A DNA stretch of 64,000 bases from Ceratodon purpureus (Eukaryota; Streptophyta; Bryopsida; Pseudoditrichales; Ditrichaceae): positions 21,318,573 through 21,382,572 of the forward strand of contig CM026426.1 of NCBI GenBank assembly GCA_014871385.1, written 5' to 3'. Positions 15,991 through 52,083 of the stretch are shown here, piece after piece (within the stretch, counting starts at the first letter, position 1; every line of letters starts with the position of its first letter). The notes under the pieces are model-generated. The model saw nothing but the letters and a program-made list of their open reading frames with translations, did no database searches and was not told where the DNA came from. The position numbers were made by a program, and so were the translations under genes.

Positions 15991-15994
15991 ATAC

Positions 15995-17769: not shown

Positions 17770-18269
17770 GCAAAGGAGGCGGAGCACGCATCAGAAGAAT
17801 CCCCTTCTTCAACAGCGGTTAAGTCTAAACGGGGAGAGAAGGTAAAGGGTGGTAAGGTAGGTGGCGCAGTCTCAATGATAAGACGGCGAGGCCACGCATA
17901 GAATGAGTGTAGTAGTGTGGACTGTCTTCACAAGTCATCATTTTTGTTTTTTTTTTTTGTTCTTGCTATATTATCTATTGACCTGCGCTAGCATGCTTGG
18001 ATAGAATGGTTCTGCAGGTACTTCGATGTATCATACCTCATCTATGAGGCCCTCTAACAAGAATTGTTCGCGGCTGAGATGCAATTTTTTTCCCTTGGCC
18101 TTGATGTTTTTCCTTTGTGTTTTATCCTTGATGAATTAATTGATCTTTTTCCTTGATAAATAGCTGTCCAGTAGGTTCTTGGTTACTCCGCTTGAAGTGT
18201 TCTCTTGCACTTTTTTTTTTTCGCATCATGACTTGCGGAAGGTGGTCTAATCGGATGTGACTCAACCAG
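17770..18269. other. Putative intron or spacer before the SUVR-like domain
   Basis: No coding sequence recognised. T-rich runs precede the possible splice acceptor CAACCAG at 18263-18269, after which the SUVR-like frame begins. Confidence 0.3.
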
Positions 18270-32358: not shown

Positions 32359-33140
32359 ATGCCGAAGAACAAGAAGCAGAAGAATGTGGGGCAATAGGGG
32401 GACAAATATGGGGACAAACCGAATTTAGGTTGCAAGGATTTTGTTACTGAATTCATCGTGAATTTTTACGAGCAGACCACCCTTGCTTCTTTGGATAGTT
32501 GTTACGTTCGGTATGAAGAAGTTGGGCCCAAGAAATTCAAGTTGGAGATGGAGATTAAGATTATGGATCACTTGATGGCGACGCAATGGGATGAAGAGAG
32601 ACAGAAGCCCGGTTATCTTAAATTTGTGGCACAGCGTGCACATGATGCGTTATGGAATGCTCGTGATGTTTTGGCTAAGTATGGAAGGGAGCATACGGTG
32701 GGAGATGAGGCCTTCAAGGATGTTATTTCAAGTCAGATTGCTTCAAGAGACTAATGGCGCCCCTGAGCTTGAAAAAGCATCGACGTGGTTCTGTTGAATG
32801 GTGGGATTCTGCGATTGGTAGGGAGACGGAGAGAAGCTTACATAAACGGAATTTGATTGTGGTGTCTGAAGGTGCAATTGTCCATTATTTGGATGGAAAA
32901 ATCCAAAAAGGTGGTTATGTAACCATACGTAGGATTCGCATCGAGTTAGCTGCTGAAATTTCTCCTACTTGGGAGTTTGCTGAGAAACGGCCGCTCAATT
33001 CGTCTATGGGGCCGGATTTGGCACGCGTGGACCACAACAACGAATCTTTTGCGATAAGGATTACCCATCCGGGTGCCATTCCCTTTATGGCCATTCATCA
33101 GAGGGAACATATCGGATACATGTACTGGTGGAACAGAGGG
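32359..33140 (+). pseudogene. Kinase-like gene, 5' part (split by the 18-kb element)
   Basis: The frame starts MPKNKKQKNVGQ, meets TAG at 32395, and continues through 32754 (MATQWDEERQKPGYLKF). A frameshift near 32752 (TAA) moves the reading to the frame beginning near 32754. That frame carries SEGAIVHYLDGKIQKGGYVTIRR, FAIRITHPG (position of the usual VAIK lysine, here Arg) and the hinge-like GYMYWWNRG at 33115-33140. Frame and sequence then continue exactly at 51391 with TLRDML. This is the N-lobe of a protein-kinase-like fold with a ~140-residue N-terminal extension; an Arg in place of the lysine would make it a pseudokinase or divergent kinase. Confidence 0.6.
33128..33140 (+). other. Target-site duplication, left copy
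   Basis: GTGGAACAGAGGG occurs here and at 51378-51390, immediately outside the two inverted ends of the inserted element. If the element begins with GGG the duplication is 10 bp, otherwise up to 13 bp; 8-11 bp is usual for Mutator-like elements. Confidence 0.8.
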
Positions 33141-33290
33141 GAAAGTTAGCATGTGTGCGGCGAGCGGCGAGCGGAGAGCGGAGAGCGGCGAGCGAAGATT
33201 TGAGAGCAGAAATTTGATATTTGAACACCCATTTGATTAAATAAAACACCCTATGACCGTGGGAAATTTTCAAAACTGGGATTATATTTT
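33138..33290 (+). repeat. Left terminal inverted repeat of the giant element
   Basis: Begins GGGGAAAGTTAGC, then GTGCGGCGAGCGGCGAGC at 33156-33173, a second GCGGAGAGCGG motif, GAGAGCAGAAATTTGA, and CCCTATGACCGTGG at 33249-33262. It matches the reverse complement of 51150-51377 with indels; the right copy is about 80 bp longer before the CCCTAT block. Confidence 0.8.
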
Positions 33291-33910
33291 TAGAATATTT
33301 TTAGTAAGAGTGTGTAATTCCGTGGAATTATGAACCTCATTATAATTTTTTTCTAGGTTTAGGGTGACATAGTATAATTAGGGCTAACGTCATGATGACG
33401 TCATACCCTGCGTTTAGTCTTCTACAGCTTTTAACAAGCCTAAATCTTCTTCTCTTACATATATCTTTCCGGCTGACAATAGGAAATCCATTTTTTCTGA
33501 TACTCTCTCTGATACGATAGAAACAGTAAACAAAGAGCCAGTCCATTCTTTAAGGAAAAAAAAAAGAAAACATAAATTTGAATAATAGTCGTGCTTCATT
33601 GCGTTCGTCATTATATGAATAAGAGTGCAGAGATGAATGTAATTCACCTGTCAATGTAAAGCATGGCTTTGAAATGTTCTTAGGATTACTTGAAAACTGT
33701 GTACAATAATTGTATTGCTAAGTCAAAAATTTATCCTCCCTAAAGTTCCTTGTCATTACTGATAATTCCATCGACTACAGATAAGATTTATTCTACCTTT
33801 TTATGTCTCTCGCAATTCCATATAAACCATACATGTTATGGGTCTGCTTGGTTATAGTCATCAACTGAAATAGTCTGGAGTCTTTCAATTCATAGGAAAG
33901 GTTTGAGAGA

Positions 33911-34423
33911 ATGAGCAATTCCTTTGAAGTTGTTGCTTGTGAAACAATTCTTCGGAATCTGCTTCGGCGGATGGCAGATGGATCAGACCTTTGGGAATTA
34001 GCCTGTATTAGTACAACTCAAGGTTGGAGTCCTCCAGTAGTGATCACGTTCGAGGATGTGGAGACTGCTCATGGAGTGTCGAAGCTATGGAGACGTGAGA
34101 TCGACAACAGCCCTGAGTACGCTTGCCTCCGACTTGCAAAATGGGATTACGATACAAACTCGGAGGGGCAATGGACGCCGAAGAGAGACTATGAAGCGTT
34201 TCGCTTCAACGTGAACTGGAATATTTTTAAGAGCTCCTGGATATTAGCACATCCGATTAGCAATGACAGATTAGAGAAAGCGTCATTTGCTGAACTTAGT
34301 TGCATTGAGTTAGATCAGTTGAGGTCATTCCTCATTGACAATAGAAATAAAGCAATGTGGGTGGAACCGAGAGAGAAAGTCATTCCTCGTGATGGTATTT
34401 GGGTCTTTCCTAAGCATAGATGA
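33911..34423 (+). CDS. Hypothetical protein, cargo of the giant element
   Basis: A 170-codon uninterrupted frame from ATG to TGA. It has balanced composition and many Trp residues (DLWELACI, WRREIDNS, KWDYDT, NWNIFKSSW, MWVEPREK). There is no signal peptide, membrane segment or recognised motif. It lies ~770 bp inside the left terminal repeat and upstream of the S-protein-like gene on the same strand. The composition makes chance unlikely, but function is unknown. Confidence 0.5.
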   Translation: MSNSFEVVACETILRNLLRRMADGSDLWELACISTTQGWSPPVVITFEDVETAHGVSKLWRREIDNSPEYACLRLAKWDYDTNSEGQWTPKRDYEAFRFNVNWNIFKSSWILAHPISNDRLEKASFAELSCIELDQLRSFLIDNRNKAMWVEPREKVIPRDGIWVFPKHR

Positions 34424-34886
34424 GAATGGTGTGCTTAAGAATTCATAAATGCAATACAGTTGTCTATGAGTAGTGATCTATGAATATTTTGAGCCTTTGA
34501 ATTATATGTGCATTCGGGCTAATTACATGATTGCAATTTTTATCTATCGATATCTATTAATGGATATATAATACTTCGACACATATACTAGAAAACCATT
34601 TACAGCTCATTGTGGTCACAATTCAGTGTGTTCAAGATTTGAAAGTTCGTTTAGATTTCATGTATCCATACTGGATAACTTCGAAATAAGTAACTGCTAG
34701 GCAAAAACCATTCGTTATTCAAAAGGTTTAATAGTTACTGAAAAGTCATCATATGTGATATTGAAGCAGATGCTCAATGCAGAACATCTTTTGTCAACAT
34801 TTGAAGAATTAAACTTTGAGCTTTGCAATTTTGAATCTCGTAAGCTATTATTAGAAATCAATTAACTTTCACTTTTATTTTATAGC
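34424..34886. other. AT-rich spacer within the giant element
   Basis: No gene or repeat recognised. Confidence 0.4.
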
Positions 34887-35756
34887 ATGAAAAATCATAG
34901 ACTTAAACGCGTTTCTGCACTATTGTTTCTCTTAGTTTTGACTATTTTCCAACAAGTACATTCATTTGATGAGGAAACTCCACAGGATGTATTGTCGCCA
35001 GTTGAAATTACAAATAATTTATACAAGAAGGTATGGCTAGATTGCTTCGAAAAGCTCTATAATCATGGTGTGCCAAAAAAGCAACACGTCGTATTTTAAC
35101 AAATCAAAGCTCATGCATCTGTCGAAGTTGGCCGCGGTCTTCTCGATTATGAAGATAATTTGTTTTGTGATTTTGAATACGAAATCCGCGAATGGAACTG
35201 TGCCATAAAATATGAGATAGATTTCATGTGCATTTGGAAACATCCAAATGCTCGTCTTATGCGACACGAATATGCAAATTTCAACGATGACAATTGTCCT
35301 ATCTGTGAACAAGGTCCCAGCCCTGATACATATTTGTGTCGATGGAATATTGAACGAGATGGTCTGTATGTTTCTCAGTTCCATCCTTTTAGCGGTAGAC
35401 ATCAGTACAAGCTTTTTAAGCATTGGAAGGAGGACGAGGACCACCACGAACATCTGTCAGAGTACAGAGTGTCTATTTTCAATGATCTGGATGATGAATT
35501 AATGCTTACATTTGGAGTTATGGATGCCCCAAGGAATACTGTGAAAATTCCTGGACGCCTTCGAGTACACATTTCCGAACGATTTTTTCGAATATCCTTA
35601 AATCGACGCACCGATGAACATTTACTGAGTTCCACTTGGATATGCAGTTTTAAAGACTTAGGGAGTATGGCTTATCGTAGAAATGTCAAAATATGGACAC
35701 CTCCTCTGGTAAACCACGTTTCAATGCCTATCGAGTATATAGATTGCGCATGGTAA
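34887..35756 (+). pseudogene. Secreted S-protein-homologue-like protein, two-domain, one in-frame stop
   Basis: Starts with a basic n-region and hydrophobic core (VSALLFLLVLTIFQ) typical of a signal peptide, then VEITNNLYKKVWLDC. A TAA at 35097-35099 interrupts the frame, which continues in phase through FEYEIREWNCAI, FMCIWK, NFNDDNCPICEQG and YLCRWNIERDGLYV. The pattern V-x-I-x-N-x-L, then FxCxW-like strands, then C-x2-C and CRW-x-I-x-x-DGLY resembles the plant self-incompatibility protein S1 family of small secreted proteins. A second, weaker copy begins YRVSIFNDLDDELML and contains STWICSFKDLG. The stop may be a lost CAA codon or a read error. Cargo of the giant element. Confidence 0.5.
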
Positions 35757-36292
35757 GCAAACAAGAGAACCTGACGATCAAAATCAACCAGCGAAGCGAC
35801 CGAAACGAGAGCACACGGAACTTTGAAATTTTATGAGAAAGAGGCATTTCTAATATTTTGATTGAACTTATAAAAATACGTGATCCATTCCTTATCCTTT
35901 TAAATCATCTTATTTTATAATTGTACTCAAACACTATTAGAACGAGTATTCAGACGGAACCTTTCAAATTTTTTGCTGAGCAACAAAGGAAACTTTAAGT
36001 TGATAACAACGCGTTGGCACCTCTGCAATGTATATTACTGCGATTTTTTTGTAAGTATTTCATAGATTCGAGAAGATGATTTACCATGTCTGAGCGATGA
36101 TAATAAATACAGTGCAAACAAAATATTTAGATGAAAGGATGCAGACAAGTGCTGTTTCAATTAACGCTTTGAGGTTCACGGCTTAGGGGTGTTCACTTAT
36201 TCATGATGGTGATTGTGACGTCTTAAGGGGCTTCAATGCGATTCCTTAAGTGGGACACACAGACAATGTGATGTCATAAATATCAAGTAACG
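35757..36292. other. Spacer within the giant element
   Basis: AT-rich, no gene recognised; it leads into the promoter of the RING-like gene. Confidence 0.4.
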
Positions 36293-36306
36293 GTTCTGTT
36301 CAGAAC
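36293..36306. promoter_or_regulatory. Single GTTC-N6-GAAC palindrome upstream of the RING-like gene
   Basis: GTTCTGTTCAGAAC lies about 120 bp before the ATG at 36429. It matches the motif arrayed at 30528-30730 ahead of the transposase-like ORF and at 26211-26852. Confidence 0.45.
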
Positions 36307-36428
36307 CATAATAAACGAAGGGTTCACCAAACTTGGTCAGTGAGCATTGTTGGGAGTTACCGTGTGTTTGAAGGATAACAATAGCAGAGAGTAGGAAAGA
36401 GCGTAAGATTTGCTGTTTTTCTTGCCGT

Positions 36429-37910
36429 TTGTTAAGTATGACAGGGAAGAGAAGGAGAGGAGGTCGCTCGCATAGACCTAGAAATGCTGGTCCTTCTATG
36501 GTTGTTAGTGATGCGCTCAATAGTGGTAGTGGGGAAGACAATGTAACAAACGAGGGTGATGTAGGACAGAGTGAGATACTCTACTCTGCAGAGGAGTTTG
36601 ATCAGCCGTTTGACTTAGACGGAATAGAGGACACTTTGCGACAAAGGATGGTGCTGGCCGCCCCCATGCTAATGGGTCGATTTGCTGTTAATGGTCGTGA
36701 GTTCTTCACACTTGTTGTCGGGCTGTGCGATCAGGGTCCACTCACACGAGATGTCTCCAAAGTCTACGGCTTCATCAAGGACGAGGAAGTAACAGCGGTT
36801 TGGAAAGAGGGAGCCTCAAAAGGACGATACGAATTGGGGAGGTGCGAAAATCTGGAGCAGCTGAAGGTGTTTAGGCATCACTTTTTCAAGGTGTATGGTA
36901 ACAAACCTGATAACAACACATTTCCATTGAGATTCTTGAAGGCCTGTTTTGCAACCTTCTTTTATAGTAAGCCAGTGAATTGGTGTGAGGAGGCACTTGA
37001 TCGACACAAGGCTCGGTTGAAGAATGCAAAGCGCAATCCTTCGAAGTTGGGACCAATCGCAACCCGCTGCCAAGTTGAAGGCCTGTGCAAGATAATCGGA
37101 GAACTGTCATTGCGAAAAGAGGGTGCAAGAGGAGAGGATTCGGGTCTGGTGTCACTTTTAGCAGCGCAGGCTGAAGAGCATGCCCGCACTGAGGATGCTA
37201 GACGAGCTACTCTGGAGGTGAACGTTTCTCATGAGAAACTCGCAAAAGCTGTGAAGAAGATGGAAGATATGGATGCGGATGCAGAGGAAGATGCGCTGAA
37301 TTCTAAACTTAGTGCTTTGCAGAAAGAGAAACGGCGGACACTTTTACAGGGATCTGGAGCGCAAGGGTACAAGGACTTGACCAAAGAGATGGAGGTCATT
37401 TCTATGCAGTTGCAAAGCATACGGGATGCTGACGCGGAGATCCAGAGTGAAATTGTCAAACTCAATGCTAACGTCCAGCTGAACTCCACTGCTCACGATG
37501 CAGCTATGGCAGCTTTGAAGTTGGCCAAGGAAGGTGTTGAAAAGGCGAGAGGGAGCATGCTAGCATTAAAGACGCCTCGAGTTTTCTCATATCCAGAGGC
37601 TTCATCCATTCCACCTTTAGGATTTGCAAGTAAGGATACTCGTGCCTACTGTAAACTAGGTTCTATATGGAAAGCTGCAATACTGTCCTCTTGCGGATGT
37701 TTTTTGCATCCTCCTTGTGCAGCTGAGTTAATTGCAGGAGGGAATTACAGATGTAGGGTGTGTAAGGATGAGCTTCTAGCCATGTCTCCCATACATCTTA
37801 CAGGTGAATGGGTTGCTCAATTTGGCGGAGAGCTTGACCGGCAGCAACTGAACGACTGCAGTGGCTTTTCTGATGTACTTAGAGAAGTTCGTGGGAACGA
37901 GAAGCAGTAG
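36429..37910 (+). CDS. Coiled-coil protein with C-terminal RING-like domain, intact
   Basis: A 493-codon uninterrupted frame beginning with a basic, Arg/Gly-rich N-terminus (TGKRRRGGRSHRPR). A globular region (about residues 60-210) includes FATFFYSKPVNWCEEALDR, which parallels LILKRPVSWCTY in the gene at 59046. A long Glu/Lys/Ala coiled coil spans about residues 240-380. The C-terminus has SSCGCFLHPPCAAEL and YRCRVCKDELL, the later Cys/His pairs of a RING-type finger; the first C-x2-C pair is degenerate (AYCKLGSI). Two decayed relatives exist at 12911 and 59046, outside this element. It may act as an adaptor or ubiquitin-ligase-like protein, but that is analogy. It is the longest unbroken frame in the window, so it may still be functional. 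Confidence 0.65.
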   Translation: MLSMTGKRRRGGRSHRPRNAGPSMVVSDALNSGSGEDNVTNEGDVGQSEILYSAEEFDQPFDLDGIEDTLRQRMVLAAPMLMGRFAVNGREFFTLVVGLCDQGPLTRDVSKVYGFIKDEEVTAVWKEGASKGRYELGRCENLEQLKVFRHHFFKVYGNKPDNNTFPLRFLKACFATFFYSKPVNWCEEALDRHKARLKNAKRNPSKLGPIATRCQVEGLCKIIGELSLRKEGARGEDSGLVSLLAAQAEEHARTEDARRATLEVNVSHEKLAKAVKKMEDMDADAEEDALNSKLSALQKEKRRTLLQGSGAQGYKDLTKEMEVISMQLQSIRDADAEIQSEIVKLNANVQLNSTAHDAAMAALKLAKEGVEKARGSMLALKTPRVFSYPEASSIPPLGFASKDTRAYCKLGSIWKAAILSSCGCFLHPPCAAELIAGGNYRCRVCKDELLAMSPIHLTGEWVAQFGGELDRQQLNDCSGFSDVLREVRGNEKQ

Positions 37911-39306
37911 GTACATGTCATGAAAAGTTTCAATTTGCTTTTTTGACAAACAATGGGACCACGAGAGGATTTTACGTAGCCTCATCTCATGATACCATAT
38001 TATTGGAGGTGTTATTTTAAAGTCAATCAGATGTTAAGGTCAGAAGGAAAAAAAATACCAATGTTTCTATAATGACATTTATTTAGTCATTCAATCATAT
38101 GTAGTATGTTTAAGCCGCGGCAATATAAACAACTGAATTGAACTGAATCATCCATTACAAGTCTGAAATGAGAAGAGAGTGCTTGTAGTTCAATGAAATG
38201 TTATCAATCATATAGCGAAGGTAATTGCCGTGAAAATGTAATAAAAAGTGAGAGGTAATATAAGCTGCTTCAAAAAATACGATTCCCATGTCAGAGATGT
38301 TCAAGGAATAAACTCGTCCTCACTTTCAACTGCACTGTGATCTATAAAACGACATCGTGTAGGATCGTATTTTGAACGAGGACTAGGAGATGCACTAGAA
38401 CTATGCGATGAGTATTCAGCTAAGGCTTGAGCTTGGTCTTCGATGTAACACGGAAGTCGCATATCTGATGAGGTAGGGGACCGGTAATACCTCCAATCCT
38501 TTGCATTCGTTAGTCGTCGACTGCAAAACAAAACAAGTTGTTAGAAATAAAATGACCAGTTTCTGCATAAACTTACCGACAAAGGATCAAGACATACAAA
38601 GATATACAGACAAAGAAATACAACTTACTCACATAGACTAACGGTTCCTTGTTCAGGTGGTAGGTCATCGTCGTCGTCTGAAAGTTCTTGAGTCTGAGGC
38701 ACCTCCTTCGCCACTGCTTTTGATGACAACGCCATGAGAGGTTGAAGCACCTGTTTGAAGATCTCCTTGTCACTTTCTAACGCCAGGATTGCACGGTTGT
38801 ATGCCTAGGCTGCCAAAATAGAAGCTCCTGCATACAGTCAAATTAGCATGTTAGTGAAGAAGATGAGAAACATTAATTGGTTTACATTAAGAAAAAGGAA
38901 GAAACAGTCCTCTAACCTGTTCCAACTGTTAGGTCACAAACGATGCCATTCTCCGGACTAAGGCCCCCTATGAAAAGCTTCATAAGCGAGACTGATTTTT
39001 CTTTTGGACCCCTCCAGTAAATGTCTCCTTGTCGTAAAAGTGCCATATCTTCCGTTAAAATATTTGGGATGACATCGTCTCTGGCTAGGTTTATCTTCTT
39101 GAACTCTGGCGGAGTTGTAATAACAAATTCCTTGGACTTCTGGTCCATTTCCGTAGCATAGTAACGCACGAGCAGAATAGCCTTTGATTTCAGTGTCTGC
39201 ACAAGGGTAAGTAGTTGAAAGTATTAGTGATAATCAAAGGGTAAGAAGACCTCGTAGGTTCCGCCATACCCCGCATCGCCAGCGGTACCATACTTACATA
39301 GGCCTT

Positions 39307-39607
39307 GCCGGTACCGGCTGTGCCCTGCAAGCTCCATCATCTCTACTGCAGTTGCAAAGTGCAGTCAAGCCGCGAGCGTCAAGACATTGCTTGAAAGGCA
39401 CCGCCGGTACCGGCGATGCCTTTTGGCCTCATTCTAACCACCGCAACGGTTGTCAATATGTCGACCACTGCAATGACCAGAGAGGGGCCTTAGAGGCATC
39501 GCCGGTACTGGCGCTGTCTGAGAAGCACTATCTTCTCCATGGCGCTGGTTGATTTTACCCACGCTGCACTGGAGAATGTAGTGCTCTCAGCCACAGCCGG
39601 TACCGGC
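39307..39607. repeat. Dispersed GCCGGTACCGGC palindromes
   Basis: Copies start at 39307, 39403, 39501 (one mismatch) and 39596, so the spacing is 94-98 bp. All lie in the intron between exons 8 and 9 of the methyltransferase-like gene. They match the array at 41088-41961. Confidence 0.8.
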
Positions 39608-41087
39608 GATGCCTCTAAGGCCACTCTGGGCTTGGCCATGGAAGACGAGTGAGCCCCGCAAACCCGCAAGCAACAAGAGTACTGAAGCATTAAACAAAAT
39701 AAAAGAATTAAAGTACAGAATAGAATTGGTACCATCTTAGTGGCGTCCGAGGGGTGAGTCATATGAAGCGAGTTGTAGATGAGCCACTCGCCCTTCACTT
39801 GGAGATTGTTGTTATTTAGAAAAGCGCCAACTTCTTTCCTGATCTTGCTGCAGTCAGGGTAGAAGAGAAGTAGAGCACCGTCATCGTGAAGGTACTGCCC
39901 GCAGAATCCAATTGCGTATTTAACGAAGTCAGCAACCTTACTGTTCCAACGTGGGACTTCTCCCGGGCGGGATGAAGCACCCGGAACAACTAAGCCGTCG
40001 GGATAATCGGCGATAACCAGGTCCACTGCTAGCTTCTCTTTCAACTTCCCAGCGAAGTAGAATTCCTTACTGGATGGAACCTAAAAAAACAAAAGGATAA
40101 TTTAGAAGAAAAATATGCAAAGGAATAATAATTATAATAAATTGATCAATTGAATGGTGTCTCACCCTCTTAAGAAACGACACCATGGCTTCGAATGAAG
40201 GAGGAAACTTGCCGGTCTTGTCTCTGACTTGAACCATGGAATGAAATGATTTGTCAAGAATCAGAACTTGAGAAAGTGGCGCTGGTGCGGTGACAGCCTG
40301 GCTTACTAACATTGCTTTAACTGCTGGAGGTGTCAACTCCTTAGAGTCATCCTTTGAAGATGGTCTGAGCAACAATTTCTTCCTTGGTCTGTCGGGAGTG
40401 CCGGCACTCGGATGTGACTCTGCCGGTCCGGTCTCGACCTTCTTGTTGGCTGCGGCTGTGGTCGCTAGAATGTCCTCCTCCTCTTCAGCTTGGTCCTTAA
40501 CCTCATCCTCAGCCTTCTTCTTACGATTCCTTCTTGCTTTCGCTCCGCCCTTCTCCCTTAAAGATCCAACTGCCGGAGGAGTAGGAGAAGCTTGAGAAGC
40601 TGCAATTGGAGGAGCCTTTGGTATCTTGGCAAGTTCGGGCTGAATGGAGTCCCTCAGTTCTGAAGGCATGGGAACCACAACATGCATTCGGCGCTGTCAA
40701 CATCCAAGTAATTCGGGAAGAAGGGGGGAACCTTAGATATCGCCTTTCTAGGCAGAAGAATGTACTTGAAGTACCGATACAAGATCCTTCGTACCGCGGG
40801 TTGAAAATTCGGCTGCTGGTCTGACTTCTTGTTCTTATGGACAAGGTCTCCATTCAACTCTCAAAAGAAAGCGGTATCCCAGAGTTGACATCTCATTGCC
40901 TCAACATAGTCAAAGATGTTGTCGATCGGGTCTCCATTATCCGGTGCGTAGTCGACCTGCACCCCGAGATCTGTGATCACTCCCTTGAAAAGCTCCTCGG
41001 CCTCAATTGCCAACTGCAACACAGTAATTGAGAATTAGTATCTTTTGAAATCAACATGGAGGAACCGCTAACCCTGCCAATTCAACC

Positions 41088-41961
41088 GCCGGTACCGGCA
41101 ATGACTTTGAAGCACCTTTGCGGTCACAGAGAAGGCTGCCAATTAGCCTTCTCATTGACTGTAGAGGTCCTTCGAAGGCACCGCCGGTACCGGCGGTGCT
41201 TTCAGGGCGCCCGGATAGTCAACGAGCACGTAAAATTGACGATTGCCTCGTTGTCTGCCCGGGCGCTCGGAAAGCACCGCCAGTACCGGCGGTGCCTCTG
41301 AAGAACACTTCCAGCCAATGAGATGGCAACGTGGACTGCCTTCGCGTTGACTGTTAGGGTCCTTCGAATGCATCGCCCGTACCGGCGGTGCTTTTGTAGC
41401 GCCCGGGAAGTCAACGAGCCGGTCGTCAACGTTACTTGCACGTTGACTATTCAGGCGCCCTGAAAGCACCGCCGGTACCGGCGGTGCCTTCGAAGGACCT
41501 TTACAGTCAAAGAGAAGGCTAATTAGCAGCCTTCTCATTGATGGGAAGGGTTCTTCAAAGGCACCGCCGGTACCGGCGTTGCTTTCAGAGCACCCGGGAA
41601 GACAACGAGCCATTCGTCTCAGCAACCTGCTCGTTGTCCTCCCGGGTGCTCTGAAAGCACCGCCGGTACCAGCGGTGCTATCGAAGGACCCTAACAGTCA
41701 CAGAGAAGGGTAAGTGGACAGCCTTTTCTTTGACTGTGAAGGTGCTTCGAAGGTACTGCCGATAGAAGCGGTGCTTTCAAAGCTCCCCGTCAGTCAAAGA
41801 GATGGCTATACATACAGCCTTCGGAGTGACTGCTATAATGGTTCAAAGGCACTGCCGGTACCGGCGGTGCTCTTAGAGATCCTATGCTGCCAACAAGCAG
41901 GTTCTCTTTATGACCTGCTCGTTGACTACTTTAGTGCTCTGAAAGCTCCGCCGGTGCCGGC
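41088..41961. repeat. Palindromic tandem array, 95-96-bp spacing (192-bp dimer)
   Basis: Dyads of GCCGGTACCGGC (or one-base variants) start at 41088, 41183, 41279, 41375, 41471, 41566, 41662, ~41756, 41854 and 41950. They are usually embedded in a GCACCGCCGGTACCGGCGGTGC-like context. The DNA between dyads is itself inverted about its midpoint. Two arm types alternate, one with GGACC..ACAGTCA..GAGAAGGCT and one with AGGGCGCCCGG..AGTCAACGAG, so the true period is about 192 bp with two dyads. It lies within the intron between exons 6 and 7 of the methyltransferase-like gene. Confidence 0.85.
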
Positions 41962-43482
41962 AGTGCCTTCAAACCATCATAGTAGTCACACAGATGGCAG
42001 GAACTAAGAGACCAATGCCAGAAACCGACAATATAACTGAAAGGTACTCACTTGAGCCCACCATGTAGCCTTATGTAGCCATGGCAGAAACACCGCGTCT
42101 GAGAATCCACCTTTCGAAAACTTGTGGGCAACCCTGATTGCCTCCGAGGAGTTCCACCTCTGGAGCCACTTCACCATCATTGATGCTGGCATGGCAGAGG
42201 TCGCCAACATCCACAGCCTCTCCTGCTGCATCTCAGGCTTATCATCTGCCTTCTCATAATGCAGCTTAATTTCTTCAAGAAATTTGGAGGAGTGCTTTGG
42301 ATCTGCGATAGGTAACATCTTCCTCAATTCCCCGGCTAATTTGTCCTCCACCCTCTGGACCGCCTTTGTGACCCACTCATCTGCTGAACGTTTGGTCCAC
42401 TGGCTTGGGTTGGGATTAGCCAACTAATACCGCTGTTGGGCTGCGTGAGCTGCCTCCCTGATCTCGTGCTGCAGTTTAATTAAAATATTAGTTAATATCA
42501 ATTGAAACGACCAAATAAAAGCGTGATTTCAAAGCTAGTCAATGCGGGGTTATAAAGGTACGCACCTGATGCAAAACAACGTTCAGGGCTTCAGCTGACA
42601 GAGTATACCAGGTCCGATTTTTTCCAGACTGTTTTTTCTTTGCAGCATCAATCACGGACCGCAAAACAAGCCCTTCAAAATACTCCACTGGCTGAGGAGC
42701 TATGTTCTGTATCCGGTATAGCTTGTGCACAAGGTTTGTAGAGACATGCGATTTCTGGTTCCTCCTGCATATTCACGGCAATGGAATATTAACAATTCAT
42801 ATCCCAGCAAAGAGTATACTAACCATTTTCGGATAAATCAAATTATTCGGAACTTACTAGTTCACTTCGTGAAGGGTTGTGAGCACCGATGGAATTTCAC
42901 CCTTGGGGTCAAGTACAACGCTCTCAACTCGGTAATGCCAGTTTATGTCACCAGCATGATACTGCTCAATGATCGGCAACCAAGCCTGCAAGCTGTGGTT
43001 TCCATCCCAAACCATAAACATCTTTTTTGAAAAGACCTTCAGATCATCGTCTGCAAGCAGGGTCGCTTCGAAATCCTCATTCACCTCCTTCCATTCCTTT
43101 GACCAGGATTCTTCGATTGCAGGTGTGACCTCAGATGTGTGTCCGTGGTTATCCTCCAGAGCCACGTAGAAATAGCCGTTGCCCTTTATGTAGCCATCTC
43201 TGACGAAGTGAACCTGTAGAGTTGATACATCGTTCTTCAAGTACGGTCTTACCACGGGCAACGAGATCATACGGCAAAGGGGAATGAAGAGCCGGCCTTT
43301 GTTCTTCGGTTGCCATCTGAGTTTCTCCAACCTGGAAGCGGAGTTGACCGTCTGGTTCGCAACTAAGTCATGGAGCATCTGGTTGACCTCGCGCTCTGTC
43401 AATGGAACTGCACAGTAGAGATAAAATTAGTCTGATGTTGTAGATGTAAGGTTAGATGCACAACAGACACCATTGCAAAGGT

Positions 43483-43994
43483 GCCAATACCGGCATTGTT
43501 CCTTAGCGACACCTTGAATTCTCAGCAGCGAATTAAACAGAGTGCTCAGAATGTAATGCCGGTACCGGCGACGTATACTTTAAGGCCCCAACTGTCGGCA
43601 GTCCAAGAGTGCAACAGCTTCACTGCACATCAGCACCGCAGCCCAACAGGCGTAAAACCCAGAAACTCAGCAGTCAAGCGGCCCAAGATGCATCCCCAAT
43701 ACCCTCAAAGAGCAACCCTAAACCATTGGGCTCTTCCTAGTCACTGTCCAAGGACGGGCACCGGTACCGGAGACAGCTTCGCGCGCACATCGTGCCCGCA
43801 AAGAAAACACTTGCAAAAATGGGCAGGGTAAGGGATTACCTGAGAGGCGCCATGGAAGACAGAATCAGTTGTTGCCCGGAAATTGATGCCGATACCGGCG
43901 TCGCCTTCTAGAGCACCCTCGCTGCTCACTACATGCGCATTGTTGTGCGAGTGCAATGCCCGAGGTTGCCATAGAAGGCACCGCCGGTACCGGC
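43483..43994. repeat. Further GCCGGTACCGGC-type palindromes
   Basis: Copies or variants start at 43483, 43558, ~43760, ~43887 and 43983 in the intron between exons 3 and 4 of the methyltransferase-like gene. The spacing is less regular than in the main array, and the context keeps AAGGCACC before the dyad at 43983. Confidence 0.7.
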
Positions 43995-45680
43995 ATTGGT
44001 TTCAGAGAACCAACTGACTCTGGCGTCGCTGGCAACGACATTAAAACAAAACCCAGATGACATACCTTCAGGTAGAGCATCCTCCTTCTGGCCTTGCATT
44101 GCTTCTTCATTGTCGCCGTCTCCTAGCTCCTCAGTATCCTCCTTCTCAACCTCGTCGTCGTCCTGAGGGTCGCGGTATATTTGTCCACTCCCCGACTGTG
44201 GCTCCTTCGAGCCGCGGCTAGCTTCTTCCTCCTCTTCCATATTCTGCGACGTGGGGGTCTCCTGACCAGACTGGGTCTCCATCTCCTGCATCGACCAGCA
44301 AAACATATAGGACTTAGTCCGATAACCTAACAATACTCGCAAGATAGCTAATCGACTCGCAGGAAAACAAAACTCATTGGATATAGGTCAGCTTACAGTC
44401 CGCAGAGTGCAAAGGACCGGCGACTCGCGACAGTGTAGAAATAAAGAGAGACTGCAAGGGGCGAAGTGAAAAAAATCAGCAGGCAAAAAAGAGCGACGAC
44501 CAGCAGTGCAGAAATAGAGGAGACCGCGAGGAGAGAAAAAGAACAATGGGACGAATTAGGGTAACTAAGAGGGAGAAAATGGCTCGGCTAGAGCTTTGGG
44601 TAGGGTAGCCTTGTCGTGGCGGCTATGGTACTGAAAATAATCAACACATTGCGCAACGCATGTAATCATACAAACATAACACGTCAAATCAACTGAAAGG
44701 ACCTCAGTGCTAAGAACTCAATGAAGTATCATGGTAAGCTTGGCCTGAATTACGAACTTCAAGAGTCTATGGGCAATTGCTAAGGCTATTGTAAAATTGT
44801 TCAAAAAAATACGGGAATGGAAAGAGACTCACATGCAATCTCGCATCAAAGAAATTAAAATTTCCTCAACATACCTCTGGCGAATCGTTCTGGGTTTCTT
44901 GAACTTCAGTTGTTTTCTTCACGAGATTTCTAGCACCCCTCGTGTACTGCTTGGTAATATGTTCTGCTACAACAACTAACGGTGTCCCCGCAGCAGACGA
45001 GTAATCTAACACCTTTGCAAGTCCTGCAGTTTCCAAAGACTCAGTTCTCTTCTTCTTGTCCCTCGCCATCCGACTAGCCATCAACGCTCTTTTAGTACTA
45101 AAATGACTTCCTCTTCTTCGTTTCTTGGCCTTCAATGGGTCCTGCATATCAAGAACCTCTATACGAAAGCATCCTACTATCCTACACAATAAGGGCTCAC
45201 CGGTCTTGATACAATCGCTTACTTCTTCCTGAGACGAGGAAGATGTCTATGCCACTACACTATGGTAGTAGTAGGGCCCATGCCAATTCAATGCAGTATT
45301 GATCGTGTAGATCGTGGGCAGAGGTAGCATAAGTCTAATTCTATTTGTGAAACAAAAAAACAAAAAGATAGTACAAGAACTAGATTTTAGTAATCTCCTT
45401 GACGGCCTGTTTCTTAAAATAAAACAGTCTTTATTAAATAGAATGTCCACCATGAATTATAATGACTCATAAAAGATCAGTTAGCATCTGGCAGCTTCAT
45501 ATCTATTTACAGCTAAAATTGGTCTTGCTTTACATCTATGAATGAGAAATAAGTGTCGTTTAGAAGTAACGAATGGTTAGAGTCTCTTGGATAAATAGAG
45601 CTACAACAATGAACTATTGCTCTCAAGTTATACATCTACCTCTAGTGGCATTGTTGTAACATCAACACCTACTGCAAAGA

Positions 45681-48600
45681 ATGGCTCATCTCCCTGCAGA
45701 CAGAGTGTTAGGCATGGCCGTGCTCAGAGCACATGGTGTTGGTATTCCACTTACAGTACGTGTAGATGAGGATGGCTTGGCACTTGTGACGGCACAACGC
45801 CTTAGCCTCAGATTTCACTTCAGAGAGGAGACTATTTGTTTAGAGGAAGAGATTTATGATGATGAGACAAATGAGATTACACATACGTTAGATCAGGTTT
45901 CTGAGAAAGATGATGACGATAACAGGTTCTAGAACCTTTATCCTGGTAGATACAGAGTTTATGGTCTTACAGAGTCCTAGTTGCAGGCGTCTACTGAGAT
46001 TCTAACTCCTCGTAGATCATCTACTGTTCAGACTCCTCTGTCTCATGATGTGAAGGTTAAGGTAGAGCCTGGCTTGGACACTCCTGATATAACACCAGTC
46101 ATCTCCCTCTCCTCAGATGAAGAGACTAGTCCCCTGAAAGCATCACCTGCTTTGCCTAGAGAGACTGTAGTATCTAGCACGCCAGCTACACTACGAGACA
46201 AATGTGCCGATACCTTTGAGACATCAAAAGAGGAGACTGTCAATGTACTGCCACTCATTAGGATACTTGCAGAGAGACCTGGGAGGAAAAATATTCTGAA
46301 GAGAATAGATTTCTCCTCAGTTAGACATGAGAAGGTGGAGTACTTACCTGCAGTCTTCAACAACAATGTGATCTTCAAGCTCCCTCCAGTTGGTGACGGG
46401 GCTAACAAGACGCAAGCAAAGGCTATGAAGGGGATGGACAAGTGTTACGACGGCCACGTTTGGACGAAGACAATCACTACCAACATCACTAACGAGTTCG
46501 GCCTGTCGTTCCGCTACTCCAGCTGCGTTGGTTGGCTGCGCTGCGTTTACAAAGAATGTGAATTTCTCAACCGTCGACCTCGAATTGTTGAGGTAAACGA
46601 GACTGAGTTTGAGGGTAGTACCCTCCAAGCTTTTACAGTGAATCAGCCACCCCCAGAGGATGCAACACTTGTCTGCAAGGTATGTAAAGAACCTCCTGTA
46701 TGTATCGCTACATGCGGAGCCAAGATTTATTACGTTCTAGGTAAATCCAACCAGACTAGGGCATGTATCCATCAAGGAACACATAATCATCCAGTGAAGG
46801 TTGGTGACTATAGAGACACTAAAGAAGAGATCAATAGCTTGATTGAAGAGCAGGTGGAGAATACTCCCCGGGCTACGAAGAGCGCCGTTGTCTTGGAGGC
46901 CAGCAAGATTCTGATTGGGAACTACCTCCTACAGCATGAGGACGCACCACCGAAGAAGCTAAGCATGGAGGAGCTCATTCCTGTACTTGACCGGTGCAAG
47001 GATATGGCTTCCCCAAATATCCGCAACAAGGTGATGACGTTCAAGCGATTGAGAAGGTACGGTGTCATGGACGCCATCACCAAACTCCGTGGGATCAGTT
47101 TGTGGGCCTTTGTCCAGGAGAACAAGTTCCCGGGCCAGGGAGCTGAGAGAGAGAAGGTCTTTGTCTTCAAGATGTCAGAAGTTGGGCCGAGTGGTGGTGT
47201 CGACTTGGTCACTAGAATGCAACCTGGTGGGGATCTTGACAATGCTTGGATTATGTTCGACCACATAAAGCGTGTACGGGATTGGTCCACCATGGCTTGC
47301 CATGTATATGACGCCACTTACTGCCGCGTCATGACGATTGCAAGTTGCGACATGCAATCCGAGGACACTGAGGCCCAGCTGGTCTTTTGGAAGAACCTCA
47401 ACATCGTTATGGAGAGGAATGGCGTTGCAGCGCCAAACTTCAAGGGCTTCATGGGCGACAACGCACAAGCGAATTGGAATGCGGTGCGTATCTTTTACGG
47501 AAATGGAAACAAGGAAGATAAAATGGAGGATCGGGAAAGGTCCTGCTTGTTCCACTGGACCCAGAACATGGTCCAGTATACAGACAAGTATTTCCCCGAA
47601 GAGCTCCAGGAACAGCACAAGAAGATGTGCAACCAACATAGGACAGCAACGACTTTGACAGAGGCGGACACTCTTTATCACGCCTTGCAGGCATGGTGGA
47701 TATCTACTGGGGTCGTGGGAGAGAAGGGCCTAACCAATCTGGGGACTTGGCTCGCATTCTGGCACCACCGCTACCGTCAGTGGGGTGGATTCATGTCTGC
47801 GGTATGATGCTACTAAACCCTGCTGCAGTACTTGTTTTCTGTTTAGGTAAACTTAATCGACATCACTTCTATAATTGATTCTAATTACTGTAATTGCTTA
47901 AACTGCAGAAATTTACTGAAGAAGAACTCACAGAGATGCCGACCTGTAACCTCGCCGAAACAGTTCACAATAAGTGGTTACAAGCATCAGATAACAACGG
48001 CAGCGACCTCTGTGTTGCGACTGTGGACGATTACGTTCGAGGCTTTCTGCAGGTTGTAAACTACTACCAGTTCCTGAAAGGTGATGTAGGCGGAACTGGA
48101 CCTTCGAAGAAGGAACTCAAGCTTTGAATGGCGGAACGCAGGGCGAAGAACAGAGGAAATCCTGTAGTCCTTGAAGATCCCATGTTTGATATGCCTGGAG
48201 CAGATGAGTTCTGCACCCGTCAGCCTGTCATGTCGGGTGCAGAGGTGTTTGGGTCACAGAAGCGTAAGGCGGACGTTCCCATCGGAGCTGACGAGGAGTC
48301 ACACCGACCAGACAAGGTTAACTTCTCACGTCCTAGAGGTGTAGGACGTAACGTTCGAGCTCGCCCTGTCCAGCTGCCCATCATCGTCGAGGACGATTCT
48401 GAAGAAGAAGAGGCCCAAGAATCTCCCGCCCAAGAAGCCTACTCGCCCCCAACGTCTCCTGTGAACGAGGTTGGCGTTCGCCATGTCAACGCTGTTGAAG
48501 AAACCAAGGTCGATGTGAAGGAGTGGCACATTGCAAGACTTCACAAAGCTTCTGCAAAGTGCTGCTGGGCCCAAAGAGCTGGTACAAAAAAGAAGTGTAC

Positions 48601-49500
48601 AGAGAGAATCGTCAGGGGCCCAAACTTCACTGCTGCACCGACCTACACCGGAGTTTGGACTAACTATCGCAGGAATACGGTTGAGAGGACAGAGTTCTTC
48701 TTCTGCTCCGATGATATTGAGCGCTGCGTGAAAGGCACAAGGCGCAAGTGGGTTGCACACTACTCCAAGGACCAGGAAGTGCCGCCAATTCCAGAGGTGT
48801 GGCCCGTAAAACTAGGTACTAACCTGAAGCTCACAGAGATCCTCGCCCTTGAAGCTGCAGGGTTCCAACTCCCGCCGAAGAAGCCTGTCTCCCCAAGACG
48901 TCTCTTCTCGTCTGCTCCGCCTCCTGCAAACCTCGCTTCGTTGCCGATTCCAGCAGAAGCTGACCGCTACCCTGGTAAGCGAGATGGGAAGATGGTCAAA
49001 CGCACAGCAACTCGACCTAACCCGGCGCAGCAACTCTCCATGGCCTCCTCTCAGTCCCTCAAGGCTCGCCTCCGTTCCATCACCATGATACCTCATCCAG
49101 GCCATGGTTGCATCATCGGGCTGGATTCAGGCGTTGCTCCAAACATCACACAGTACCACATCACCATCACCTCTTACCCGAGTTGCACTTGTCCAGCATT
49201 CGGGAAGACGATGACTAAGTTTTGAGGTAAGATACAGTTTTCATACTGTAAACATATTTATTACATCCTTTTAAAGGTCTGCAACCGTAATCCGGAGGCC
49301 GAGCTTTTCATCCATGCGCCTACCTTTAGTTTCAACGAAGTCAAGCTAGTCCTAGAGAACGGAATCTTGACACACCCCTTGGCCAAAAAATAGGAGGCAC
49401 TATACTATTATGGGTTCGAGTATGCATAGTGGACAGTGGTTCATGCGGATACTTAGCCTGAGGTGATTGAATTTTTCCTTGTACTGAATCAGCAATACAA
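45681..49500 (+). pseudogene. Mutator-like (MULE) transposase with zinc finger and SWIM domain
   Basis: The N-terminal domain starts at 45681 and is separated in frame from the main part by TAG at 45930 and 45978. The main frame holds a C-C-H-H finger of WRKY/FLYWCH/GCM type (WLRCVYKECEF ... RACIHQGTHNHPVKVGD), then DDE-like motifs CHVYDATYCRVM, FMGDNAQANWNAVR and CLFHWTQNM as in MULE transposases. An intron (47802-47908, GT/AG) joins FMSA to KFTEEELTEMP. TGA at 48125 and 49223 interrupt the C-terminal frame; across the second, CTCPAF and CKHIYYILLKV form a SWIM finger. Three TAGs (49391, 49427, 49454) follow. The transposase would excise and insert the surrounding element, but this copy carries several stops and is probably inactive. 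Confidence 0.75.
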
Positions 49501-49754
49501 ATCTCGTATTGCCTATTTCAATATAAAGGTTTTGTCATTCACATTCATTACATTGTGTTACAATAGCATTCATTTCAACAAGTGGCATTTGTTATTTATA
49601 ATAACGCACAATTGGACTGTACTCATTCCATGAATACATTTAAATATAGATTTTATTCCTTGAACTTAATGCGTTTAGGTATCCCCTTCGCATTTTCAGC
49701 ACAATCACGAACTACCTCCTACACTACAGGACAAGCTACATTGACATTCATTGT

Positions 49755-50033
49755 TCATTCCCTAATTGGCACTTCTCGTAGGCGGGGACGTTTCAACAAT
49801 GGAATAGCTTCACTCTTTCCACGTAATGCCTCCCTAGAATAAGTCCCTGGTGGAATCTTCCCGACCTTGGAGTATGCATGAGGTGCCAAAGGGACAACCG
49901 TTTCCTCCAGGGGAACTACGAGAACACCTGGCTCTTCAACAGCCACTATGTCTCCTATCACATCTACTTTTACTTCCACGCCATCATTTTCAGAATGCCC
50001 TTCATTGCACCCATTCAACGCTTCTACTGGCAC
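49755..50033 (-). CDS. Small hypothetical ORF near the right end of the giant element
   Basis: A 92-codon minus-strand frame rich in Val, Pro and Glu, ending LLKRPRLREVPIRE. The start would be GTG, so it may be an exon of a longer gene or chance. No family recognised. Confidence 0.2.
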   Translation of the reverse strand: MPVEALNGCNEGHSENDGVEVKVDVIGDIVAVEEPGVLVVPLEETVVPLAPHAYSKVGKIPPGTYSREALRGKSEAIPLLKRPRLREVPIRE

Positions 50034-50149
50034 TACTTAAATATCGAGGAGGTAGATGCTCGGCGCCCTTGAATGGTGGGATATATAAGAATGTTTAAAT
50101 ATTGTACCACTCCATGGCATGAATAGGTTTGTTATCACTGTTTTGATTA

Positions 50150-50509
50150 ATTTGTAGACAAAATACCCTAAACCATCAATTGGGAGTGAACTAGAAGCTC
50201 TTTCAAAAGATAGAAAATAAAAAATGAAAAGGTAAAGAATTAAAAGATAGTAAAATTAGAAGACGAATGAAAAAAAATAAGGATATAAAAAAGATAAAAG
50301 ATAAAAGATAAAAGAATAAGAAAATAAATAAATTAATTGATTAAAAAAAATAAGAAATAAAAACACATAAAAGAAAAAATATACATATATAAAGAGTGCA
50401 AAAATAGAAAAAAAGTATAAAAAAAACAAAAACGATAAATGATGGAATTAAACTAAAAAAATAAAAGAAATAGTGATTTAAAAATCTAAAAATCAAATAA
50501 GATAAAAGA

Positions 50510-50557
<48 letters not shown>

Positions 50558-51149
50558 GAAGAAAAAAAAGAAAACAATGTAAAATAAAATAAAAATAATG
50601 ATGAGACAAAATAAAAACAATAAAAAGATAAAAGGTATGAAAATTAAAAATATATAGAAAACGATTAAAGATAAAAGAAAAAAATGATAAAAAAGAGTTA
50701 AATGTTAAAAGGTAAAAAAAATTAAATAAATAAAAAAATAAAAGATAAGAAATGCAACTTAAAGATGATGCGTTAATACAAACCGTATATAGTATTTAAA
50801 AATAAAAATTAGAAGGGAATAATTCAAATGAAAAAACAATAAAAAAAATATATACATTAGAAAAAATTGAACACCAAAAAATGGAAGATTAAATGGCGAT
50901 TAACATCAACGTTGTAACACATTTACTAGAGATTAAAAAACAATTGTTAGAATTGGAATTGAAAAGATGGGTAGAATTGAAGAATGTCGAAAGAGAAGTT
51001 AATTCAAATAATTAAAAAAAAAAACAAAAAGACATGAAGAGAACGGTAGAAATGTAGTAATGTGAAGAAAAATGACCTAGGATTCGAAATTCAGTTATTC
51101 AGTCATTTCAACATTAAATAAAAGGATAGAGCACCTACATTGAAAATTA
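50150..51149. repeat. A-rich low-complexity DNA with (TA)n
   Basis: Degenerate AAAAGATAAAAG-type repeats with a (TA)n run at about 50514-50552. No coding sequence. It fills the right arm of the giant element before the terminal repeat. Confidence 0.7.
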
Positions 51150-51377
51150 TCAGAAATAGTGAATTTCAGTCCACGGTTATAGGGTCATTATTATTACCAA
51201 AAATAGTAATATTCTTAGAATATTCTGAGAATATTTGAATCTGCTAATAATATTTTTTATTATTAGTAATAATATTATTGTTTTTAGATTAAGACCTTCA
51301 TTTTCTGCTCGAAGCTCACCAAATCTCCGCTCGCTGCTCTCCGCTCGCCGCTCGCCGCACGCATACAAGCTACCCCC
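51150..51377 (-). repeat. Right terminal inverted repeat of the giant element
   Basis: Read on the minus strand from 51377 it begins GGGGGTAGCTTG, then GTGCGGCGAGCGGCGAGC, GGAGATTTGG, GAGCAGAAAATGA and, at 51184-51171, CCCTATAACCGTGG. All are in the same order as in the left repeat. An open frame seems to run through this repeat into the kinase-like sequence, but only from 51378 onward is it kinase coding. Confidence 0.8.
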
Positions 51378-51390
51378 GTGGAACAGAGGG
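51378..51390 (+). other. Target-site duplication, right copy
   Basis: GTGGAACAGAGGG, identical to 33128-33140, directly after the CCCCC end of the element and in frame with the 3' part of the kinase-like gene. Confidence 0.8.
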
Positions 51391-52083
51391 ACCCTCCGGG
51401 ACATGCTCCAAAGAGACAATGAGGCCGGGGATAACCTCCTCATCTACTACACCTTCAGTAGGAATCCAAAGGACAGTCTGATTCTAGGAAAGCGTCTCCG
51501 AATTTTCCGAAGCAAGCAAACAGAGCTTGCTTGGGCACTATGTTTTATCATGGATGGGGTGCACAAATATGGTTATCTCCACAATGACTTGTCATCGGAC
51601 AACATCCTACTTCACTTTCCGGAAGACAAGTCCAAGATCTACATCGGGGTTTGCGATTGGGGCTTGATGACGATGATAGATGAGCCGAGAAGGTTGCCCT
51701 GGGTTTTCCAGAGTGCCCATCAGATGCAGGAGATTGTGAGAAGGCAATACTAGGTGGATCCTCGCGTGGTATACGTACACAAGGAAAACCAAGATATTCA
51801 AATCATTCTAGATTTGGGTATTGGATCGGAGGAGTTCACAACCGCAAGGATTGCCGCAAGGATCAACCGCGGCAACATGTGCACAGCATACCACGAAGCC
51901 GAGGCAGTGGAAACATGCCATTTTCAGAAGATCGGAAACCTTTGTCAAGTTTTCGAAGGTTATCTTGATAGAGTTTGCAAGAACAATATGGGAACGGTGG
52001 GTGGACTCGGACATCTTATTAATCGTTTCAGAGATACACACAATTGGCCCACTCTTAAGGAGCATTACCGCATGGCGTACTGA
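51391..52083 (+). pseudogene. Kinase-like gene, 3' part (C-lobe)
   Basis: Continues the frame broken at 33140: TLRDML, a hinge/alpha-D region, then GYLHNDLSSDNILLHF, which has the catalytic-loop pattern HxD-x4-N. VCDWGLMT follows, a DFG variant with Trp. TAG at 51751-51753 interrupts, after which the same frame runs to TGA at 52081-52083. HND and DWG keep the catalytic Asp, Asn and Mg-binding Asp, whereas the N-lobe lysine position reads Arg. Together with 32359-33140 it would give a product of roughly 490 residues. The family is not recognised; the gene was already carrying, or later gained, stops besides the transposon insertion. Confidence 0.6.

Follow-up and report, generated by a model that had tools for sequence, protein, structure and literature searches.

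Giant Mutator-like elements with apparently interchangeable gene cassettes and intronic palindrome arrays in the moss Ceratodon purpureus

In the Arabidopsis transposon VANDAL21, the protein VANC binds a 9-bp motif that occurs in dynamic tandem repeats, also in the introns of VANC and VANB, and thereby leads to demethylation of elements of its own family (PMC5735166). Pack-MULEs (MULE, Mutator-like element) carry gene fragments and are mostly 1-2 kb long, with none exceeding 7 kb in a survey cited in PMC6431247. Here we analyzed a 64-kb stretch of the genome of the moss Ceratodon purpureus (contig C6, positions 21318573-21382572, in an assembly of 362.5 Mb and 151 contigs), in the following called the window. 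It contains an inserted element of 18,240 bp, which almost certainly belongs to a large mobile family of giant elements with a recurring core of genes. The best overall explanation, to which we assign a probability of roughly 60%, is that the family is a mosaic one whose gene cassettes would carry their own palindromes as a means of self-recognition.

The inserted element and its relatives

A first-pass annotation, made from the letters of the window, had proposed a single giant Mutator-like element of ~18.2 kb with a 13-bp repeat at its junctions and inverted ends. Both features were found where they had been placed: the repeat, GTGGAACAGAGGG, occurs exactly twice in the window, at 33128 and 51378. 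Comparison with the termini of sister copies gives GGGGAAAGTTAGC as the start of the element and GGGGGTAGCTTG as its end (reverse complement), so that the target-site duplication is 10 bp, GTGGAACAGA, with its left copy at 33128..33137 and its right copy at 51378..51387. Identity extends to 33140 via shared G, and a duplication of 13 bp was rejected because the sister ends show that the last GGG coincides by chance with the terminal Gs. Positions 33138-51377 are one inserted element.

The left terminal inverted repeat (33138..33202, + strand) consists of GGGGAAAGTTAGCATG, followed by the GTGCGGCGAGCGGCGAGC core and 7-bp GCGGCGA repeats; the right one (51320..51377, - strand) consists of GGGGGTAGCTTGTATGC, followed by the core as at the left end. 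An alignment of the two ends spans 54 bp with 83% identity, or 43 bp with 91% in another register of the 7-bp repeats. With up to 3 mismatches allowed, the GCGGCGAGCGGCGAGCGGAGAGC core had no further match in the window. An inner CCCTAT(G/A)ACCGTGG block, also named in the annotation, is indeed present at 33249-33262 (+) and 51171-51184 (-), but it is weak evidence alone, two matches at ≤2 mismatches being obtained in 8 of 100 shuffles.

The ends were used to search the assembly for other copies. Genome pattern searches listed the first 100 places, and genome protein searches scored the best 150 candidates. The 18-bp end core is present in 159 copies, as compared with 0 for the reversed control. 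Neighbors at ≤35 kb among the 100 listed cores form 23 facing pairs (9.2-31.5 kb apart), no back-to-back pair and one same-strand pair. Nine of the 23 pairs were read whole (15.4-21.1 kb, window copy included), the other eight having been picked mainly for a length like that of the window copy. Three were read in part (C2_5.38, the end loci of C1_27.81, and C6_58.43), C2_17.19 was begun and left unanalyzed, and ten were left unread. Terminal sequence beyond the core is common to all nine whole elements, although C6_88.69 and C6_96.13 differ slightly from the others, and so is the left terminus AAAGTTAGC. Exact left ends number 96 genome-wide, and the reversed control gave none. Exact flanking repeats of 10-13 bp, which we interpret as duplications of 9-11 bp, were found in seven of the nine elements; the duplication of C6_96.13, identified by eye, has one mismatch. 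The further pair C1_27.81 is flanked by the duplication TAATCCTATG.

Two of the whole elements, C1_18.06 and C2_4.74, are 98% identical over 100% of their length but lie on different contigs and have different duplications, and the unit therefore moves whole. By this comparison, one lineage moved recently as a complete unit of 18.6-18.9 kb. Open frames of C2_4.74 served to define 13 coding segments, and C1_18.06 has no stop in any of them. In the window copy, stops interrupt the transposase, S-protein-like, methyltransferase-like and ORF6 (ORF, open reading frame) segments, and this copy looks dead. The proposal of one giant Mutator-like unit was thus supported by the duplication, the inverted ends, a transposase gene of its own and the whole-unit movement of its kind, and the search with the ends returned further elements with like ends and recurring genes.

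Contig C6 holds 50 of the 96 exact left ends, although it accounts for 30.5% of the assembly (110.5 Mb; one-sided binomial p 8e-6). The other large contigs with a printed size measure 16-29 Mb. As the U and V chromosomes of C. purpureus each exceed 100 Mb and make up ~30% of a 360-Mb genome (PMC8000587), C6 is probably a moss sex chromosome.

The insertion was said to split a kinase-like gene. The 5' part of this gene lies at 32709..33127 (+) and its 3' part at 51391..51750 (+; PF07714, E=5e-4, 19.9 bits, below the cut-off of 23.1), and its frame runs uninterrupted across the junction when the insert is removed. Paralogous empty sites exist: the insertion point (residue 122 of the 242-residue query) is covered by 150/150 listed paralogues, which, as the best 150 of 1023 candidates, are biased toward unbroken copies. 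The insertion inside the frame thus stands. However, the target belongs to a high-copy family, so that the splitting of a unique kinase gene is ruled out, and the host copy itself was apparently already broken, since its reading frame shifts near 32750 and a stop codon follows at 51751. Copies of this family (32709-33127 and 51391-52083 in the window) often have an open 495-aa ORF, and the majority of the 150 listed copies were seen, by eye, on contig C6; the family may belong to another mobile element.

Own genes and a mosaic structure

The transposase gene lies at 45660..49395 (+) and has two long exons, ending at 47801 and starting at 47909. It has four in-frame stops in the window copy and none in C1_18.06 and C2_4.74. 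The protein shows a D..D..CxxH signature with LAE, and open copies also carry a SWIM-like CxC..CxH. The DDE/CxxH signature, which was fixed after the ORF had been seen, occurs once in the six frames of the window, in 0/60 block shuffles and in 2/20000 residue shuffles of the ORF. There was no Pfam match to a MULE transposase and no relative in the PDB, and the SWIM label reaches only E=0.11 with PF04434, below the cut-off. The SWIM-containing MULE transposase of the annotation is thus a tentative label, suggested by the signature and the CxC..CxH of open copies and below the Pfam cut-offs. Likewise, the assignment to MULEs is based on the length of the duplication (10 bp in the window), the terminal inverted repeats common to the copies and the transposase signature, not on Pfam. 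The transposase exon had no relatives in viral contigs. A subgroup of transposases with 505-aa open frames and 93% identity is present in dozens of equal-scoring copies at many places on C1-C13; it may represent another recently active family with a like transposase.

The annotation had regarded the other genes as cargo. Such a Pack-MULE-like element with captured, unrelated host genes would account for several non-transposase genes between MULE-type ends. Across the nine whole elements, however, ORF1, the RING-like gene, ORF6, the DGNHR exon (named after a peptide motif) and the first mid exon of the methyltransferase-like gene were found in 9/9. The transposase, a small basic ORF rich in nuclear localization signals (NLS), and the motif-IV, motif-I and second mid exons were each found in 8/9. 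The S-protein-like gene was found in 5/9. Strands are constant across the nine elements, and so is the order wherever positions were printed. Pack-MULEs hold captured host fragments without a transposase of their own; recurring whole genes and an own transposase were found here. From this recurrence, most genes are therefore the element's own and appear to form its core. The cargo reading did not survive for the recurring genes and was rejected, given the recurrence of four genes in 9/9 elements and of the transposase in 8/9, on constant strands, together with protein conservation (below). As a general explanation it is exceedingly improbable. The S-protein-like gene, found in 5/9 elements and inverted in a short member of the family, could be a later capture.

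ORF1 (33905..34423, +, 172 aa) is open in the window copy and has no recognized domain. It adjoins the left end in 8/8 distinct 3-kb left-end loci, three of which belong to the nine whole elements. The RING-like protein with C-terminal Cys/His residues (36438..37910, +, 490 aa) is also open in the window copy and had no Pfam RING match. The S-protein-like gene (34888..35756, +) is broken by in-frame stops; an open copy matches PF05938 at E=0.026, below the cut-off. The NLS-rich ORF lies at 44866..45246 (-), and ORF6, with its main open part at 49755..50036 (-), lies between the transposase and the right end and has stops in the window copy. ORF6 was not seen within 1.5 kb of the right end of C1_27.81. 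The short pair C6_58.43 (9.3 kb) holds ORF1 and the inverted S-protein-like gene, and the remaining element segments were not found in the 6.8 kb read (~2.5 kb unread). Between the ORFs of the element and those of its flanks in the window, no homology was detected at E 1e-4.

The transposase has dN/dS (nonsynonymous to synonymous) ratios of 0.10-0.36. For the RING-like and methyltransferase-like genes, dN between cassette classes is 0.24-0.57 at saturated silent sites, which indicates that these proteins are conserved; dN of the NLS-rich ORF reaches 0.64. Ratios of 0.18-0.78 for ORF1 and 0-1.56 for ORF6 indicate that constraint is weak or absent between some of the copies compared.

The DGNHR and amino-methyltransferase-like gene (38301..44291, -) has several exons, whose boundaries were set by eye, and in-frame stops in the window copy. 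The DGNHR exon lies at 42860-43408 (-), the mid exons at ~42058-42425 and ~40070-41014 (-), the motif-IV exon (IADYPDG, not DPPY) at ~39735-40080 (-) and the motif-I exon (DLTVGTG) at ~38914-39180 (-). The "ParB/methyltransferase" label of the annotation received some support in its second half, examined as that of a beta-class amino (N6/N4) DNA methyltransferase: the protein matches PF01555 at E=5e-5 (23.8 bits, below the cut-off of 26.7), and its best PHROG methyltransferase match is at 1.4e-6. A search against phages returned 38 records, the best at E 3e-4 over 28% of the length, and others with ~25% identity over 90-94% at E 0.01-0.1. "ParB" is a resemblance of the DGNHR motif only. This motif is present in 13 of 14 sequences (the window copy has DGNHS), and a profile of the 14 gave 7 matches in the PDB, of which the best had E=0.17 and none resembled ParB. 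Pfam scans of the 14 sequences singly gave DUF5531 in 5/14 (best E=0.0049) and DndB in 2/14 (E=0.16), all of them weak. No relatives of the DGNHR exon were found in phages, prokaryote genomes or viral contigs (the latter two searched with two peptide patterns each), and none of the motif-IV exon in viral contigs. When the DGNHR exon was searched against the genome, 150 matches out of 1853 candidates were scored, most of them stop-free. The idea of a hypervariable "ParB" domain was dropped, the DGNHR domain being 63-67% identical between classes (measured against C2_4.74 open frames).

The RING-like gene, the DGNHR/amino-methyltransferase-like gene and the NLS-rich ORF together make up what we call the middle cassette. 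The transposase block shows 89-94% DNA identity in the four pairs compared. Between cassette classes, the methyltransferase-like exons have 40-70% protein identity to C2_4.74, with saturated silent sites, and the NLS-rich ORF has 33-38% identity. Within a single comparison, that of the window copy with C2_4.74, the transposase block is 94% identical in DNA (dS 0.12-0.19) and dS of the RING-like and methyltransferase-like genes is saturated. The same holds for C6_88.36 and C6_88.69, in which the left part is 93% and the transposase block 92% identical, with a saturated middle. C6_88.36 and C1_0.23 have a dS of 0.9 in ORF1 and of 0.13 in the DGNHR exon, so that C6_88.36 matches one element in its left end and another in its DGNHR exon, and the left block switches independently. 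Judged by these identities, the family is a mosaic in which interchangeable middle cassettes are combined with a transposase block that hardly varies. The cassettes are anciently diverged with their protein sequence conserved, and the pattern points to exchange by recombination between element lineages, though gene conversion might also have produced it.

Palindrome arrays and their proposed role

Three introns of the methyltransferase-like gene in the window contain arrays of the palindrome GCCG(N4)CGGC. The arrays at 39307..39607 and 41088..41961 have the core GTAC and a spacing of ~96 bp and 95-96 bp, respectively, the latter with units in alternating orientation; the third, at 43558..43994, lies upstream of the DGNHR exon. 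All 16 near-matches (≤1 mismatch) to GCCGGTACCGGC in the window lie in three long introns of this gene. An array is present upstream of the DGNHR exon in 9/9 elements and between two mid exons in 8/9. The main core is TTAA in five other elements and GCAC/GTGC in three; the part read of C2_5.38 has GTAC with TTGC. In total, the nine elements and this part contain 136 sites, whereas none of the 15 other all-GC half-sites was counted more than twice (0-2 each). None of the 136 sites falls into a tested coding segment, and 118/119 lie inside gene spans, which were set by hand, as were the class labels used below.

For a planned test, 20 further DGNHR loci were chosen for exon diversity before their DNA was seen, and 1.6 kb upstream of each was fetched. 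Nineteen had at least two sites, with 159 sites overall versus 0 for every control half-site, and in each of the 19 a single core predominates if a core and its reverse complement are counted together. Genome-wide, GCCGTTAACGGC occurs 1460 times, versus 6 for the reversed control, and each of the 50 listed sites (all on C1) has a DGNHR match or an end core from the respective lists within 25 kb. The excess of GCCGGTACCGGC is modest (293 versus 78), so the count was rejected as sole proof and position was tested instead. Among 50 listed sites, 31 are ≤15 kb from an end core and 39 are ≤5 kb from a listed DGNHR match; 49 are near either mark, and C5:14490433 is near neither. At L065 (C1:5387100-5388100), we also observed a dense alternating TTAA/TCAA array with sites ~106 bp apart; among the listed DGNHR exons, the nearest is ~22 kb away.

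Placed on the tree of the DGNHR exon (30 rows), the core requires 6 changes, compared with a mean of 15.8 in shuffled sets, none of 200 being as low. The 4-bp core (TTAA, GTAC, GCAC/GTGC or GCAA/TTGC) thus follows the clade of the methyltransferase-like gene. This is also expected if the palindromes are selfish or passive tandem repeats of introns that hitch-hike with the gene and have no role in the element: the arrays are tandem with a varied spacing (42-746 bp), and they adjoin the gene, so that shared history alone would give the agreement with the tree. We nevertheless consider such passive repeats unlikely. With the sites masked, array introns aligned over ≥100 bp in 5/22 same-class and 5/168 different-class pairs, and the units therefore turn over while the palindrome, a 12-bp frame, mostly stays. 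Palindromes with the 15 other half-sites are as rare as stated above. In addition, two loci on C1 have three TTAA sites in an enlarged transposase intron of ~480 bp, as against ~105 bp in C2_4.74, and the short member C6_58.43 has four TTAA sites and one TCAA site, without a RING-like, methyltransferase-like or transposase segment in the part read. These arrays seem to exceed what linkage explains. Taking turnover and placement together, the arrays are very probably kept by selection.

Selection might also act on nucleic acid structure. If the arrays acted as RNA or DNA hairpins (a source of small interfering RNA, control of splicing, or replication signals) and not as protein targets, the alternating inverted 96-bp units of the window array at 41085-42000 would be expected. 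The intron is indeed predicted to form very long hairpins, with -672 kcal/mol for 1037 nt, a value obtained without a shuffle control at that length. A fixed GCCG...CGGC frame and a clade-specific core would, however, be needless for this purpose, given that unit sequences and spacings differ, and we regard a hairpin role as quite unlikely.

We instead favor self-recognition. From the structure, conservation and gene association of the arrays, and from their dissociation from the gene in some members, we infer binding, the identity of the binder and an effect on chromatin as follows. The cassette would encode a factor with sequence specificity, for which the DGNHR/methyltransferase-like protein is the most likely candidate, and this factor would recognize the palindromes of its own element type. 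Binding or modification of the palindromes would keep this type open to transcription and transposition, and a swap of cassettes would change the recognition group. We propose this by analogy with VANC; the result would be an anti-silencing or self-marking system. That the function is self-recognition in trans by the cassette's own protein seems to us somewhat better than an even chance. We are more tentative about a stronger version, in which the cassettes are swappable DGNHR/methyltransferase and palindrome codes and orthogonal lineages confine marking or de-silencing to elements of their own kind; it is conceivable, but we would not expect it to be right. It can be likened to the switching of specificity in restriction-modification systems, here in a plant genome.

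Several observations weigh against this interpretation or parts of it. One locus of the 20 in the planned test, L051 (C6:82994876-82997000), has a single site (core TTAC) and no array, and several of the 20 are closely related to one another and do not represent 20 independent cases. Besides the small excess of GCCGGTACCGGC, the loose pattern GCCGNNNNCGGC is only 1.6x enriched (6495 versus 4043 for the reversed control). TTAA, GCAA and GTAC change 2-3 times each on the DGNHR tree, and the adjacency of gene and arrays discussed above applies to the agreement with that tree. No convincing family match was obtained for the DGNHR domain, and motif IV reads [DE][FY]PDG in 7/8 aligned copies, not DPPY, and is altered further in C6_96.13; enzymatic activity is thus doubtful, and the methyltransferase-like domain may bind without methylating. 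At the level of the family, C6_88.36 is the one whole element with no visible duplication and it lacks the motif-IV and motif-I exons, C6_96.13 is without a recognizable transposase, and for some pairs dN/dS of ORF6 approaches or exceeds 1.

The methyltransferase-like domain, the DGNHR motif and the palindromes with type-specific cores are also what one would expect of a restriction-modification-like system, with a self-marking methyltransferase and a partner acting on unmarked DNA, or of partition-site arrays. The non-canonical motif IV speaks against this, as does the lack of a nuclease or ATPase domain in Pfam scans, which recognized little in these proteins. We consider both variants highly unlikely.

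Elsewhere in the window, an ORF at 527-3124 (+) combines RNase H (E 4e-13) and the PCIF1 WW-domain family (E 4e-11) in one frame and probably represents a retroelement that includes a PCIF1-like portion. Separate ORFs at 14335-19010 (+) weakly match a RING-type domain (E 0.011) and a SET domain (E 3e-5) and perhaps form one RING/SET gene.

Comparison with described systems

The C. purpureus genome paper (Carey et al., 2021) reportedly named "Lanisha" cut-and-paste transposons, which are of the same class and species as the present family and may be identical to it. To our knowledge, neither arrays nor cassettes have been described for "Lanisha". It is therefore possible that the family has already been described, though perhaps not its arrays. 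In the literature searched (titles and starts of abstracts, with most subscription papers outside the search), we found no description of GCCG(N4)CGGC arrays.

In a eukaryotic genome, a multi-gene element of 18.6-18.9 kb moved in one piece, and its ends are compatible with transposition of the Mutator type. If the self-recognition reading is true, the family would be a second, apparently independent plant case of a transposon gene and an intronic motif changing together. The code would be sharper here: the palindrome frame is fixed, there are four or more cores and no fewer than 150 scored matches to the gene, and the short member provides a natural dissociation. Self-recognition or protection by transposons would thereby become directly testable.

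The elements differ from Pack-MULEs in that several recurring genes occur within 15-21 kb together with an own transposase. Like the KI-MULEs (Kaonashi), which hold an Ulp1-type gene (PMC13317346, PMC2528002), they contain coding sequence other than the transposase. In size and gene number, they resemble the En/Spm (CACTA) families of Chondrus, which are 16-20 kb long with 4-5 ORFs; these belong to a different superfamily, and the available part of the source describes no palindrome arrays for them (PMC6431247). Differences from VANDAL are the inverted-repeat ends, Vandal being a non-TIR MULE (TIR, terminal inverted repeat; PMC13317346), the copy length of 15-21 kb, the DGNHR/methyltransferase-like candidate, and the fixed palindrome with a variable core. 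By its description, the candidate protein looks unrelated to VANC. At the same time, the family resembles Arabidopsis VANDAL in being Mutator-like, in having accessory genes and in carrying intronic tandem arrays of a short, family-specific motif (PMC5735166), and the arrangement known from VANDAL and VANC, arrays of an element-specific motif in the introns of accessory genes, was found here as well.

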